The notes under the pieces: generated by a model | Seen by the model: only the letters and a program-made list of their open reading frames with translations | What the model was told of the DNA's origin: nothing | The model's database searches: none | Position numbers and translations under genes: made by a program | Source: Marmoricola sp. | GTDB taxonomy: Bacteria > Actinomycetota > Actinomycetes > Propionibacteriales > Nocardioidaceae | Direction of reading: 5' to 3' | Assembly (NCBI RefSeq): GCF_025965215.1 | Contig: NZ_JAOPXI010000070.1 | Span: 1-64,000, forward strand | Length of the DNA stretch: 64,000 nt | In this document: positions 50,460-56,408 of the stretch, piece after piece | Numbering within the stretch: the first letter of the stretch is position 1 | Layout of the letters: each line of letters begins with the position of its first letter

Positions 50460-52832
50460 TCAGCCGAGCTTCAGGACGAGGTAGCGGCCTTGCTGGTACG
50501 CGAGGGCCGCGTACTTCTCCAGACCGGCGACGTCGGCCGGGAAGCGGGTGTCCACGAACAACCAGCGGACGTGGTAGCGCCGGCTCAGCAGGCCGATGGT
50601 CGACGGCGACGGGTGGTTGAACGCCGCGTCGTTGTTCCGCAGCCGCACCGGGTCCCAGAACGGCCCCACGGTCACGTTCTCGTCGGCCGGCGGGTGCTCG
50701 CCGACGCTCCACCGGGACACGTAGGACCAGCCTTCGACGAGGACCTGTCGCTCGGCATAGGCCGCGATCCAGAAACTGCGCGGCACACACTGCACCGGCT
50801 GCGCTCGCTGGCAGTGCACGTTGGTGGCGAGCAGGTCGTCCGTGGCGCTGTGCGCCCGGAGCCAGCGTGCGGCCCCGATACCGCCGTGGCCGATCTGGGT
50901 TGGGTTCGTCGAGGCGACCGGTCGGGCGAGCGGATCACTGAGTACCCCCGGTACCACTGTCCGGATGAACGGACCCGTCCCGAAGCCCGCGAAGGTCGCG
51001 GCGACGACGAGGAGCGACACACCGGGCAGGGCAGGTCTTCCGCGCACGAGGAGCCGACGGCCGCCGAGGACGAGACCGACCAGCACCAGCACGAAGATCA
51101 ACCAGAGCGCCTCCGGCAGCGCGAACAGTCGTAGTGCCAGGGACGCGGGTGAGCCCTGCGGGTTGTGCGGGGCCGCGTGGAGGGTGAACTCGTGGAAGGC
51201 CCAGGTGCCGAGCATGCCGATCGCCAGCGCGGCCAGGCCCGGCCCGACGAACCGCGCGACGTGTGGCCCCTCCACGATCTGGTGGATGCCCAGGGTCGCG
51301 GCGACCATCATCGGAAGCGCGACGACGTAGATGAAGTAGTACTCGCTGAAGCTGGACTGGTGGAAGGTCAGTCCGGCGCCGAGCCCGGCGGCGCAGGTGA
51401 CGACCAGGAAGACGTTCGCCGGGTTCGCCCAGCCCCGGCGGCTGAGTAGGGCCAACCCGGCGATCCCGAGGGTCAGGTAGGCCAGCATGAAGGTCGCGAC
51501 GATCGCCCGGACGCCGAAGGACATCGTGCCGCCAGGGTCCGCGAGTCCGGGGAACGACGTCAGTCGTGAGGTGCTCAGCGCCAGCGGGTCCAGCGCCAGC
51601 CCGTGCGAGCCGGGGCCGAAGAAGATGATCTTCGCGACCTCGAAGGCGATCCCGGCGCCGACGGTCAGCACTCCTGCACGCAGGTTCACCTTGCGCGCCG
51701 CCACGCTGGTGATCACGGTCGCAGCGGCGAGCCCGGCCAGGACCGTGGGAAGCGAGGTCGACTTGGCACCGGCCATGGCCACGAACACGACGAAGACGAG
51801 TGCGGTGGCGGCGTAAGCGCGGCGCGGCAGGGTCAGCAGCTCCAGGCACAGCAGCACACCCAGCAGCAGGGCAGCGTTGACGAATCCTGCGCTGGGTGAG
51901 GCGATCAGCCTGGTGCTGATCAGCCCCTCGCCGGCGCCAGATGTCCATCCGCCGAAACTCGCCGGACCGATGAGGACGGTCGCGAACAGAACCAGACCTG
52001 TCCACAGTGCTCCGCTGAGGCGGACCACGACGAAGGCAGCCGCGACCACCGCGATGATGACCAGGGCAGGCAGCGCCACGGCCCGGAGCAGGACGATCGG
52101 CTCGATGCCGGTGACCCAGGAGGATGCGGCCACGTGCACGTGCGCCAGGTAGTGGTAGTTCAGTGGTGTGTCGGCGACGTAGGTGACCCGCGGTGGGAAG
52201 AAGTGCTTCAGCCCGCTGGCCAGTGCGAGATGGTAGGGCTCGTCCACGTACGGTGCCCGCAGCGCGTTCGGCTGCACCGAGCTGACCCGCCACAGGTAAT
52301 GTCCGAACCACGACACCAGGTACAGGCCGGCGACACCGGCCGACCAGGACCACCACAGCGGCAGCCTGCCGCTGCCCAGGTGGCGTGCGGTCCGGCCGAG
52401 GGGTGAGATCAGGAGCGCCAGCGGCATCAGCGGCCAGAGCAGGTAGCCGTGCGGGTGCCCCAGGGCCAGGAAAGCCAAGTAGATCGGGAACTCAAGGACG
52501 TAGCCGACCAGGGAGCCGATCAACAGGTCCTCACCGAGGTGCCGGCGCCCACCAGCGGAACCGCCGGCACGACTGCCCCTCGGGTCGACCAGCCGCCAGA
52601 TCACCGTGCCCGGGAACGTCACCCAGACTGCGAGGTATCCCACGAAGCGTGCCGCGTCACCCAATGACACCGCGGCTGAGATGTGGATGACTCCGACGTA
52701 CCCGAGGACCACGAGGACGAAGGGGACCCAGCCGGACAGAAGCACGGCCCGCACTCGCTCCGGCACGGGGATCGTGTCGCTCGGATCGGTTCTAGAGGAG
52801 TCGGACGTCAGGGCGGGCTCGGATCCGGACAC
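50460..52832 (-). CDS. Large polytopic membrane protein, paralog 3 (GT-C-like, unknown function)
   Basis: This is a 790-residue member of the same family as the tandem pair at 34555/36951. It has multiple membrane helices, the loop motif LNYHYLAHVHVAAS, and the C-terminal soluble domain GGIGAARWLRAHS, DLLATNVHC, VEGWSYVSR, WDPVRLRNNDAAF and VRWLFVDTRFPADV. An N-terminal Ser/Thr/Asp-rich tail of about 25 residues precedes the first helix. Here it lies in an envelope-glycan cluster and is divergent from a GT2 gene, with a shared palindromic -10 box. This context is the best clue that the family transfers sugars from polyprenyl carriers. The GTG start is 6 nt after TATAGT. Confidence 0.82.
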   Translation of the reverse strand: MSGSEPALTSDSSRTDPSDTIPVPERVRAVLLSGWVPFVLVVLGYVGVIHISAAVSLGDAARFVGYLAVWVTFPGTVIWRLVDPRGSRAGGSAGGRRHLGEDLLIGSLVGYVLEFPIYLAFLALGHPHGYLLWPLMPLALLISPLGRTARHLGSGRLPLWWSWSAGVAGLYLVSWFGHYLWRVSSVQPNALRAPYVDEPYHLALASGLKHFFPPRVTYVADTPLNYHYLAHVHVAASSWVTGIEPIVLLRAVALPALVIIAVVAAAFVVVRLSGALWTGLVLFATVLIGPASFGGWTSGAGEGLISTRLIASPSAGFVNAALLLGVLLCLELLTLPRRAYAATALVFVVFVAMAGAKSTSLPTVLAGLAAATVITSVAARKVNLRAGVLTVGAGIAFEVAKIIFFGPGSHGLALDPLALSTSRLTSFPGLADPGGTMSFGVRAIVATFMLAYLTLGIAGLALLSRRGWANPANVFLVVTCAAGLGAGLTFHQSSFSEYYFIYVVALPMMVAATLGIHQIVEGPHVARFVGPGLAALAIGMLGTWAFHEFTLHAAPHNPQGSPASLALRLFALPEALWLIFVLVLVGLVLGGRRLLVRGRPALPGVSLLVVAATFAGFGTGPFIRTVVPGVLSDPLARPVASTNPTQIGHGGIGAARWLRAHSATDDLLATNVHCQRAQPVQCVPRSFWIAAYAERQVLVEGWSYVSRWSVGEHPPADENVTVGPFWDPVRLRNNDAAFNHPSPSTIGLLSRRYHVRWLFVDTRFPADVAGLEKYAALAYQQGRYLVLKLG

Positions 52833-52838
52833 CCGGTG

Positions 52839-52846
52839 ACTATAGT
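52839..52846. promoter_or_regulatory. Shared palindromic -10 box ACTATAGT serving both divergent genes
   Basis: The palindrome gives TATAGT on both strands. Rightward it is 8 nt from the GT2 GTG (52855); leftward it is 6 nt from the paralog 3 GTG (52832). It is flanked by inverted CACCCG...CGGGTG. One box cannot be used in both directions at once. Confidence 0.6.
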
Positions 52847-52854
52847 CGGGTGCC

Positions 52855-53865
52855 GTGACCGCCCACGAAGACCACCCCGTCCGCGCGCACCAGATCTCGG
52901 TGGTGATCCCGGTCTACGGAGGACAGGACCATCTGGCCGCCGTGGTGGACGAACTCGCCCCGTACGCCGAGCCCTCGGCCACGCCGGGCGGGCGGCCGTA
53001 CCGGGTCAGCGAAGTGATCCTGGTCCACGACGGCGGCCACGACGATTCGCCGCGGGTGATGCGCGAGCTGGCAGCCCGGTACCCGTTCGTCCGGCTGCTG
53101 TGGATGAGCCGCAACTTCGGGCAGCACGCTGCGACCCTTGCCGGGATCGCGGGGTCGGGCGGCGATTGGGTCGTCACCATGGACGAGGACGGGCAGCACG
53201 ACCCGCGCTACATCCCCGACATGATCGATGTCGCAGTCGCCCAGCAGGCGAAGGTCGTGTACGCGAAGCCGATCAACCCGCCCCACCACACGGCGTTCCG
53301 CAACGCGTCCTCGCGCGCAGCCAAGCGGGTGATCAACATGCTCTCCGGTGCCGCCGACGCCACCCAGTTCCAGAGCTACCGGCTCATTCTCGGCGAGATC
53401 GGCCGGAGCATCGCGGCCTACGCGGGCTCCGGGGTGTACCTCGACGTAGCCCTCGGCTGGGTGGTCGGGAGGGCCGCGACCGCGCCGGTCGAGCTGCGCC
53501 CGGAGGGGGATGACCGCACGTCCAGCTATTCGTTGCGCCGGCTGCTCGGGCACTTCCTGCGGATGATCCTGACCGGTGGCACCCGCGGGCTGAGGATCGT
53601 CGGGTTGCTCGGAGTGATGTTCGGGATTCTCGGACTGGTGCTCGCCGCGGTGATCGCCGTCGACCAGCTCGTGAGCCCGGCGTCGGTGCAGGGCTGGGCG
53701 TCGACCATCGTGGTGATCCTGATCAGCTCGGGGGCGCTGCTGTTCTCCCTGGCCGTCGTCGCCGAGTACATCGGCGTCGCCGTGAACACCGCCCTCGGCA
53801 AGCCTCTGTACCTGTTGACCCAGGACCCGGCGGAGGGACCTCTCGGGCGTGACCGGCAGTCCTGA
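52855..53865 (+). CDS. GT2 glycosyltransferase (polyprenyl-phosphate sugar synthase type)
   Basis: This is a 336-residue GT-A enzyme with the metal-binding DED in VVTMDEDGQHDPRYIPDM and two C-terminal membrane helices, as in ArnC/GtrB/DPM-like enzymes that make polyprenyl-phosphate-linked sugars. QISVVIPVYGGQDHLAAVVDEL is the nucleotide-binding start. Such products are the donors for GT-C membrane glycosyltransferases, so pairing with the divergent 790-residue protein is functionally attractive (inference). The GTG start is 8 nt from TATAGT. It overlaps the downstream epimerase gene by 17 bp. Confidence 0.9.
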   Translation: MTAHEDHPVRAHQISVVIPVYGGQDHLAAVVDELAPYAEPSATPGGRPYRVSEVILVHDGGHDDSPRVMRELAARYPFVRLLWMSRNFGQHAATLAGIAGSGGDWVVTMDEDGQHDPRYIPDMIDVAVAQQAKVVYAKPINPPHHTAFRNASSRAAKRVINMLSGAADATQFQSYRLILGEIGRSIAAYAGSGVYLDVALGWVVGRAATAPVELRPEGDDRTSSYSLRRLLGHFLRMILTGGTRGLRIVGLLGVMFGILGLVLAAVIAVDQLVSPASVQGWASTIVVILISSGALLFSLAVVAEYIGVAVNTALGKPLYLLTQDPAEGPLGRDRQS

Positions 53866-54781
53866 ATCCCGCACGACCTGGGTCGTCGGCGCCTCCGGCC
53901 TGCTCGGGACCTCCGTGCGACGTGCCGCCGCCGACCGTGGCGACCGGCTGTACCTGGCCGCGATCCCCTGGCACGAGCCGGACGCCGCCGTCGAGGCCCT
54001 GGTCCGCGCGGCGGCCGGTCTTCCCGAGCACAACTGGCGGATGTTGTGGTGCGCCGGCTCGGGCGTCGTCGGGAGCTCGCCGGAGAAGCTCGCCGGAGAG
54101 CTCGACGTGGTCGGCCGGTTCTTGGAGCAGTGGCGCCCCAGCACCGACGGGGCGGTCTTCCTGGCCTCGTCCGCCGGTGGCGTGTACGCAGGCTCAGCAG
54201 CGCCTCCGTTCACCGAGGAGACAGTGCCGGTCCCGTTGTCGCCGTACGGGGAGACCAAGCTTCGCACCGAAGGACTCTTCGCGGCCTTCGCCCAGCGCGT
54301 CGGTGTGCCCCTTCTCACCGGACGGTTCTCCAACCTGTACGGCCCCGGCCAGGACCTGTCCAAGGGCCAAGGGCTCATCTCGCTGTTGCTACGCGCGCAC
54401 TTGACGGGGGTACCGCTGGACATCTACGTCCCGCTCGACACCATGCGCGACTACCTGTATGCCGACGACGCAGCCGCGATGGCGCTCGCGGGCCTGGAGT
54501 ACGTCGCGGCCGACAGGAACTCCCGGACCAGGATCCTGGCCAGCGAGCAGTCCTGCACGATCGCCAGCGTCGTCGGCGAGATCCGGCGGATCACCCGACG
54601 ACGGCCCCCGCTGGTGCTGTCGCCCTCTGCCAATGCCCGGTTCCAGACCGCGGACCTGCGGATGCACTCCGTGCTGGAACCGTCCTTGCGGCAGTACGTG
54701 CGGACGCCGTTCGCGGTCGGGGTGCAGGCATGCCTCGCAGCCGTGGAGACCGCGATGCACGTGCCTGCCGCCCGAGGCTAG
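53849..54781 (+). CDS. NAD-dependent epimerase/dehydratase family protein
   Basis: This is a 310-residue extended-SDR sugar-nucleotide enzyme with WVVGASGLLGTSVRRAA (Rossmann), the catalytic Ser/Thr region FLASSAGGVYAG, and the YGETK Tyr-Lys pair, plus GRFSNLYGPGQDLSKGQG. It may epimerise or reduce a sugar moiety, possibly one already lipid-linked given its coupling to the GT2 gene (17-bp overlap). It is not the dTDP-glucose dehydratase (encoded at 55419). GTG start. It ends in a 4-bp convergent overlap with the GtrA gene. Confidence 0.87.
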   Translation: MTGSPESRTTWVVGASGLLGTSVRRAAADRGDRLYLAAIPWHEPDAAVEALVRAAAGLPEHNWRMLWCAGSGVVGSSPEKLAGELDVVGRFLEQWRPSTDGAVFLASSAGGVYAGSAAPPFTEETVPVPLSPYGETKLRTEGLFAAFAQRVGVPLLTGRFSNLYGPGQDLSKGQGLISLLLRAHLTGVPLDIYVPLDTMRDYLYADDAAAMALAGLEYVAADRNSRTRILASEQSCTIASVVGEIRRITRRRPPLVLSPSANARFQTADLRMHSVLEPSLRQYVRTPFAVGVQACLAAVETAMHVPAARG

Positions 54782-55239
54782 GAACCAGGGTCGGCCGGCT
54801 GTGCCGGCCGCCGGAAGCTGAACAGGGCGTGGCTGAAGTAGGTCACGACGACCACCACGACCAGCGCGACCATCTGGCCGAGCACGACCGACAGGCCCAG
54901 GACCTCGACCGTGACCGCGAGAACCGCAGCGTTCAGGCCGATGCTGCTGAGCTGGACCGTCGTGTAGCGGGCGAAGTCGACCCACGCGTTCCCGTGGGTG
55001 TCGAACACGAGGATCCGCTGCGACGCGAACGCGATCGGGATGCTCAGGCCGTAGGTCGGCAGCAGCAGCACCAGGTATTGGACATGGTGGCCGAGCAGGG
55101 CGTGGAACAGGATGAAGAGCCCGTACCCGAGCACGGTGTTCGCGCCGCCGACGACGAGGAACCGAATCTCACGGCGCAGCCAGACGGTCCGGATCAGCCC
55201 CGTCAGCCGGACCCGGGCGGAACTCGCGACAGAGGGCAT
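54778..55239 (-). CDS. GtrA-family membrane protein 1
   Basis: This is a 153-residue four-helix membrane protein of the GtrA/DPMS-associated family, proposed to flip polyprenyl-phosphate-linked sugars. It has the typical EIRFLVVGGANTVLGYGLF start and a last helix followed by SHALFSFRRP. Its gene is convergent with the epimerase and divergent from rmlB across a 179-bp gap. It pairs with the GT2 synthase in function by family knowledge. A second, diverged GtrA gene lies on the other side of rmlB. Confidence 0.85.
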   Translation of the reverse strand: MPSVASSARVRLTGLIRTVWLRREIRFLVVGGANTVLGYGLFILFHALLGHHVQYLVLLLPTYGLSIPIAFASQRILVFDTHGNAWVDFARYTTVQLSSIGLNAAVLAVTVEVLGLSVVLGQMVALVVVVVVTYFSHALFSFRRPAQPADPGS

Positions 55240-55323
55240 CGAGACGGCCGATCCTCCTCAGCAAGGCGCAACACGCGCAGTCCGTTGTCCGGTCCCGGTG
55301 GTCCGGCTCGGATCCCGCGCTGA

Positions 55324-55333
55324 GACTATAGTC
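55324..55333. promoter_or_regulatory. Palindromic -10 element GACTATAGTC in the gtrA-rmlB divergent gap
   Basis: The same 10-bp palindrome as in the paralog 3/GT2 promoter (52838-52847 region). It lies about 85 bp from both start codons, so leaders are expected. The remainder of the 179-bp gap shows no other clear element. Confidence 0.5.
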
Positions 55334-55418
55334 CGGGCGCGCCCGCGGCCCGGGCGCCCGGCTGACGACGTTACGCTTCGGTGTCCGGTGGGAGTCTGTG
55401 TTTGATGGAAGGCAGGGC

Positions 55419-56408
55419 ATGAAGCTCTTGGTCACCGGTGGCGCCGGATTCATCGGCAGCCACTACGTCCGCATGGTCCTTGGCGGGGCCTGGGGATTGG
55501 GGGAGCCCGACGAGGTCGTCGTGCTCGACAAGTTCACGTACGCCGGCAACATCGAGAACCTTGCCCCGGTGCGTGACGATGAGCGCCTGCAGGTCGTCGA
55601 GGGCGACATCCTCGACCGCGAGCTGGTCGACAAGCTCATCGGGCAGGCGGACGCGGTGGTCCACTTCGCCGCCGAGAGCCACGTCGACCGCTCGATCCTC
55701 GGCGCTCGTGACTTCGTGATGACCAACGCGGTCGGCACCCAGACGCTGCTCGACTCGGCGCTCGCGCTCGGGATCGACAAGTTCGTGCACGTCTCGACCG
55801 ACGAGGTCTACGGATCCATCCCCGAGGGCAGCTGGGACGAGAACGAGCCATTGCTGCCGAACTCGCCGTACTCGGCCTCGAAGGCTTCCAGCGACCTGCT
55901 GGCTCGCGCCTACCACCGCACCCACGGCGTACCGGTGAGCATCACGCGCTGCTCGAACAACTACGGGCCGTACCAGTTCCCCGAAAAGGTCATCCCGCTG
56001 TTCGTGACCAACCTGATCGACGGTGCGAACGTCCCCCTGTACGGCGAGGGCGCGAATGTCCGCGACTGGCTCCACGTCGACGACCACTGCCGGGGCATCC
56101 ACCTGGTGCTGCTGCGCGGACGGGTCGGCGAGACCTACAACATCGGCGGCGGTACCGAGCTGACCAACAAGGAACTGACCGGTCTGCTCCTCCAGGCCAC
56201 CGGTGCTGACTGGGACCGGGTCGACCGGGTCGCCGATCGGCTCGGCCACGACCTGCGCTACTCGGTCGACATCTCCAAGATCACCGCCGAGCTCGGCTAC
56301 ACCCCCCAGGTCGACTTCGAGCAGGGGCTGGCCGACACGGTGGACTGGTACCGCAACAATCGCGAGTGGTGGGAACCGCTCAAGGCCCGCGCAGCACTGG
56401 GGCGTTGA
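55419..56408 (+). CDS. rmlB: dTDP-glucose 4,6-dehydratase
   Basis: This 329-residue enzyme makes dTDP-4-keto-6-deoxyglucose in the rhamnose/6-deoxysugar pathway. It shows KLLVTGGAGFIGSHYVR, the active-site VSTDEVYGSIPEG (Asp-Glu pair), YSASKASSDLLARA (Tyr/Lys), SNNYGPYQFPEK and VRDWLHVDDHC. ATG 55419 follows AGGCAGGGC. The track ORF starts seven codons earlier at GTG 55398, which is less likely. It is followed after 7 bp by the second GtrA gene. rmlA is encoded convergently downstream, but rmlC and rmlD are not in the window. Confidence 0.95.
   Translation: MKLLVTGGAGFIGSHYVRMVLGGAWGLGEPDEVVVLDKFTYAGNIENLAPVRDDERLQVVEGDILDRELVDKLIGQADAVVHFAAESHVDRSILGARDFVMTNAVGTQTLLDSALALGIDKFVHVSTDEVYGSIPEGSWDENEPLLPNSPYSASKASSDLLARAYHRTHGVPVSITRCSNNYGPYQFPEKVIPLFVTNLIDGANVPLYGEGANVRDWLHVDDHCRGIHLVLLRGRVGETYNIGGGTELTNKELTGLLLQATGADWDRVDRVADRLGHDLRYSVDISKITAELGYTPQVDFEQGLADTVDWYRNNREWWEPLKARAALGR

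Follow-up and report, generated by a model that had tools for sequence, protein, structure and literature searches.

How can a single -10 element serve two genes that face away from each other, when only 22 nt separate their start codons? The question is raised by a locus in the window, the whole 64,000-nt stretch of a Marmoricola sp. genome analysed here, in which a glycosyltransferase (GT2) gene and the gene of a large membrane protein diverge from the 10-bp palindrome GACTATAGTC (box 1, Table 1). A sequence-only reading had proposed that the two genes are leaderless, that they share one palindromic -10 box, and that they would be expressed by alternating or competing initiation.

Table 1. 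Coordinates of the boxes, repeats and genes discussed in the text.
Feature	Coordinates	Strand	Remarks
GACTATAGTC palindrome, box 1	52838..52847	.	Putative shared symmetric -10 region; conserved at orthologous promoters
-10 hexamer TATAGT for the GT2 gene (predicted)	52841..52846	+	8 nt, then GTG 52855
-10 hexamer TATAGT for the GT-C-like gene (predicted)	52839..52844	-	6 nt, then GTG 52832; identical in G108
GGATCCGAGCC near box 1	52816..52826	-	11 nt past box 1, GT-C side
Polytopic membrane protein, 790 aa, GT-C-like by inference	50460..52832	-	Predicted leaderless, start GTG 52832
GT2, ArnC/GtrB-like polyprenyl-phosphate glycosyltransferase, 336 aa	52855..53865	+	Predicted leaderless, start GTG 52855
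NAD-dependent epimerase/dehydratase	53849..54781	+	PF01370; downstream of GT2 in 80/80 loci
gtrA (GtrA/DPMS transmembrane)	54778..55239	-	PF04138; SD-led; 85 nt from box 2
GGATCCGAGCC near box 2	55305..55315	-	8 nt past box 2, gtrA side
GACTATAGTC box 2	55324..55333	.	Between gtrA and rmlB; also in G108
rmlB	55419..56408	+	TIGR01181, 436 bits; likely start ATG 55419, GGAAGG upstream

A symmetric -10 box between two start codons

The GT2 gene product matches PF00535 and scores 95.8 bits with the ArnC family model, well under the curated cut-off of that model. It aligns over its full length, GT2 domain and C-terminal membrane region included, with the structures of ArnC and Synechocystis GtrB (sll0501), and it also resembles the phage GtrB-like family phrog_841. 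The protein is therefore likely a polyprenyl-phosphate sugar donor synthase of the ArnC/GtrB type, as had been supposed. By comparison, the divergent protein, which has about 13 hydrophobic segments and orthologues in two genomes (G108 and G060), matched nothing in Pfam, NCBIfam and PDB sequence searches, GT-C families included. The GT-C-like label given to it earlier agrees with its hydrophobic segments and its context, from which we infer a GT-C, but not with any family profile. The pair is surrounded by genes for a methyltransferase, an epimerase, two GtrA proteins, RmlB and RmlA.

The 28 bases from 52830 to 52857 read exactly CACCCGGTGACTATAGTCGGGTGCCGTG, and the coordinates confirm that TATAGT stands on both strands, 6 and 8 nt from the opposing GTG codons. 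With these gaps between TANNNT and start codon, transcription of both genes would begin at the start codon itself, leaving no room for a Shine–Dalgarno (SD) sequence. In leaderless actinobacterial promoters, TANNNT immediately precedes the start codon (PMC3898074, PMC6448022, PMC3160421); box 1 resembles them in having TANNNT 5–9 nt before GTG or ATG without an SD sequence, and differs in that it is predicted to be used twice, on opposite strands. At box 1, the best -35 candidates match 2–3 of 6 positions in either direction, and a shared -35 element was sought and not found. The sequence flanking the box is asymmetric beyond the 10 bp.

In the window, ACTATAGT occurs in two copies against 0.05 expected per 64 kb, and none of 100 shuffles gave two. 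Across the 3.6-Mb genome, neither ACTATAGT nor GACTATAGTC occurs outside box 1 and box 2, and the arrangement TATAGT-N5-9-RTG is found only five times genome-wide, two of these being the box 1 pair. A looser pattern, any overlapping opposed TANNNT boxes flanked by CAY and RTG, would arise by chance about 0.7 times in 64 kb, so the significance of the box comes from the start codons of real genes and from conservation rather than from the motif alone. Taken in this way, box 1 is not due to chance.

Near-symmetric -10 elements that drive divergent transcription have been described as bidirectional promoters (Warman, Grainger and colleagues, Nat Microbiol 2021, as cited in PMC10268837; PMC12825309). 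Their transcription start sites (TSSs) lie 7–25 bp apart, most commonly 18 bp and also commonly 10 or 23 bp; they often stand between functionally linked divergent genes, and the binding of polymerase is mutually exclusive (PMC10268837, PMC12825309). Box 1 shares with them a symmetric -10 on both strands, carried by ACTATAGT and conserved, and a predicted TSS separation of 23 bp, which falls inside the defining range and among the common distances. It differs in that both genes are predicted to be leaderless, that the -35 regions lie inside the opposing coding sequence, and that its register, ACTATAGT, is not the commonest 18-bp type. The -18 base is T for the plus start (52837) and C for the minus start, box 1 being no member of the 18-bp class. 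The two hexamers are displaced from each other by 2 bp, which corresponds to 21 bp at 7-bp spacing on both sides and is not exactly one of the preferred 10, 18 or 23 arrangements.

The surroundings of start codons were also surveyed in a 1.2-Mb sample of a same-genus genome. A leaderless-type box precedes 160 of its 926 genes, as called by a crude gene caller, against 23 with shifted positions. An overlapping reverse TANNNT accompanies 14 of 84 boxes at divergent starts and 3 of 79 at co-directional ones, and 3 of the 147 divergent pairs combine two leaderless-type starts with overlapping boxes, so that this architecture recurs about 2–3 times per Mb. Three divergent leaderless-type pairs with overlapping -10 boxes lie at G081:C1 367874-367894, 683432-683452 and 783587-783609 (for example CACCGCACGAGCCTAGGCTGTCCGCGTG). 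Palindromic ACTATAGT is also seen beside an ABC-transporter ATPase gene in L138, and at G170:C1:3411829-3411854 with start codons near on both sides. Matches to ACTATAGT-N-RTG in 200 genomes of the family were set aside, being mostly ACTATAGTTTGGTATTGGTG inside 23S rRNA and no promoter. Our literature search found no paper on actinobacterial double-leaderless promoters, and a paper on leaderless genes in Deinococcus-Thermus is silent on both bidirectional and divergent promoters.

Conservation of the box at GT2 orthologues

A scan of the genome collection, in which the nearest kin are Marmoricola (Nocardioidaceae), yielded 491 GT2 orthologues, of which 80 loci were read. About 65 of 83 GT2 loci across Actinomycetota have TANNNT 5–9 nt ahead of an in-frame start, which makes a leaderless GT2 gene probable in much of this group. 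The more specific TATAGT-N6-8-start is retained at orthologues of 55–94% identity. The combination of TATAGT and a symmetric left arm occurs in four GT2 clades, namely in Marmoricola-type genomes, Cellulomonas, Cellulosimicrobium, one Kribbella and one Nocardioidaceae MAG. At the level of sequence, box 1 is thus a real, conserved feature, and a symmetric -10 common to two predicted leaderless genes is well supported by this conservation.

Of 25 loci whose upstream gene is divergent, 11 have the symmetric register, against 1 of 40 whose upstream gene is co-directional (Fisher p=5e-5, a value that ignores relatedness; orientations were assigned by hand), which is suggestive of a tie between the symmetry and a divergent neighbour. 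One Kribbella locus retains the palindrome although its neighbour is co-directional. The divergent partner at the box varies: it is the GT-C-like gene in the window and in G108, where the spacer and the box on the GT-C side are identical to those of the window; another GT2 gene with an SD sequence in L051, L052 and L007; and gtrA in L084, L085, L060, L074, L113, L101 and L020. Among these, L085 presents an independent double-leaderless pair, gtrA/GT2. Upstream of GT2 in L112 (Microbacterium ureisolvens), TATTCTA gives overlapping 18-bp-type -10 boxes between gtrA and GT2.

A second box and the history of the locus

A second copy of the palindrome had been reported in the gtrA–rmlB gap. It is present, with ACTATAGT at 55325, but as a leadered version: the gtrA ATG is 85 nt away, the rmlB GTG and ATG are 65 and 86 nt away (the GTG at 55398 being the first in-frame start), and SD-like sequences precede both genes. 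The right flanks of the two boxes resemble each other no better than shuffles do.

Gene order offers a possible origin for this second box. In L084 and L085, leftward GT-C and gtrA genes are followed by the box and by rightward GT2, epimerase and rmlB genes. In the window and G108, the order is leftward GT-C, box 1, rightward GT2 and epimerase, leftward gtrA, box 2 and rightward rmlB. The box was apparently copied together with gtrA: if the segment gtrA-box-GT2-epimerase had been duplicated in tandem and its outer copies then lost, exactly the window order would result. The box would be ancestral at the GT2 gene, and box 2, duplicated with gtrA, would serve gtrA and rmlB. Two near-identical gtrA-box-GT2 starts, L185 9384 and L186 75, stand at contig ends in G039, one of the GT2 genes being truncated; this pair could have arisen by duplication in tandem or from the assembly itself.

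In addition, GGATCCGAGCC lies beside both boxes on the same side (Table 1), a similarity whose score was equalled in 14 of 5000 shuffles and 27 of 5000 random pairs. At box 1, it is possibly a trace of the duplicated gtrA leader that now encodes the N-terminus of the GT-C-like protein. The G060 orthologue of this protein starts after an SD sequence and is homologous to the window protein from residue 28, so the window gene seems to have been lengthened at its 5' end, up to a leaderless start at box 1. The N-terminal 20–25 residues are missing from the G060 orthologue, and the first 24 codons show a weak coding signal, with 5/3/7 substitutions by codon position.

Such a lineage-specific, weakly coding extension is what would be expected if TATAGT served the leaderless GT2 gene only, the minus-strand TATAGT being incidental to the symmetry and the GT-C-like gene starting farther downstream; that the conserved part of the element is the GT2 box points the same way. 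By comparison, the minus-strand hexamer stands at a perfect 6-nt spacing from an in-frame GTG, its spacer and box are unchanged in G108, and symmetry is associated with divergent neighbours. On balance we consider such a one-way promoter unlikely.

Two-way use of the element and its meaning

We regard it as likely that box 1 is a bidirectional promoter for two leaderless genes, whose element is ancestral at GT2 and was duplicated with gtrA. The housekeeping RNA polymerase holoenzyme would bind the symmetric -10 ACTATAGT in either orientation and start rightward at or next to GTG 52855, into the GT2–epimerase operon, or leftward at or next to GTG 52832, into the GT-C-like gene, giving two leaderless mRNAs with a predicted distance of about 23 bp between their start sites. 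Since the two footprints coincide, one polymerase would be bound at a time and the two operons would receive a linked transcript supply, in keeping with a predicted co-expression. Mutual exclusion at box 1 would thus follow from geometry, whereas actual competition between the operons would depend on promoter strength. In this respect the claim of alternating or competing initiation stands in part: steric exclusion is plausible, but at five E. coli bidirectional promoters the basal activity is too low for polymerase competition, which is seen only under strong one-way activation (PMC12825309). Competing expression of the two genes is therefore possible and is not the default expectation.

A symmetric site could also suit a protein dimer. 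Box 1 is a perfect 10-bp palindrome, and the genome has just two copies of it, each within the same pathway, as would fit a dimeric repressor whose operator overlaps the GT2 promoter, the two boxes forming a small pathway regulon. A probable use of this kind is seen in Kribbella-type genomes (L033, L035-L039, L048, around 1501), in which GACTATAGTC stands 6 nt upstream of the start codon, ATG, in a MarR/GNAT gene as the core of TTCTCTGACTATAGTCAGAGAA, a 22-bp palindrome that is perfect in several loci and is likely an autoregulatory MarR-type operator on a leaderless promoter. These sites share with box 1 the core and its position before a start codon but have a longer palindrome at an unrelated locus; they belong to the MarR/GNAT gene and, as a separate family, were not counted with box 1. 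For box 1 itself an operator is quite improbable, since its flanks are asymmetric, many orthologues lack the 10-mer, no candidate regulator was found, and the symmetry is not kept regardless of orientation but tracks divergent neighbours (11/25 versus 1/40, phylogeny uncorrected). Furthermore, L007 (GAATATAGTC) and L085 (AACTATAGTC) break the 10-bp palindrome and retain TANNNT on both strands, a pattern better explained by two polymerase sites than by a single operator.

Extending the bidirectional promoter reading, we tentatively suggest, as a rather doubtful proposal, that the box is a movable, heritable 10-bp double-leaderless core promoter. It would stay at GT2 while its partner is swapped (gtrA, GT2b, GT-C), and a copy carried by gtrA would have become a second two-way promoter; one polymerase-binding event would then supply the synthase and its partners.

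A two-way promoter with a symmetric -10 is an already described kind, to which box 1 would add an example. Most work on such promoters has been done in E. coli. If the bidirectional reading is correct, the locus would provide a clear evolutionary test case for them in Actinomycetota, in which the symmetric -10 is kept beside divergent partners, is mostly missing beside co-directional ones and would have been copied along with a gene. Its double-leaderless form would also show how compact a two-way promoter can be, with 22 nt between the start codons.
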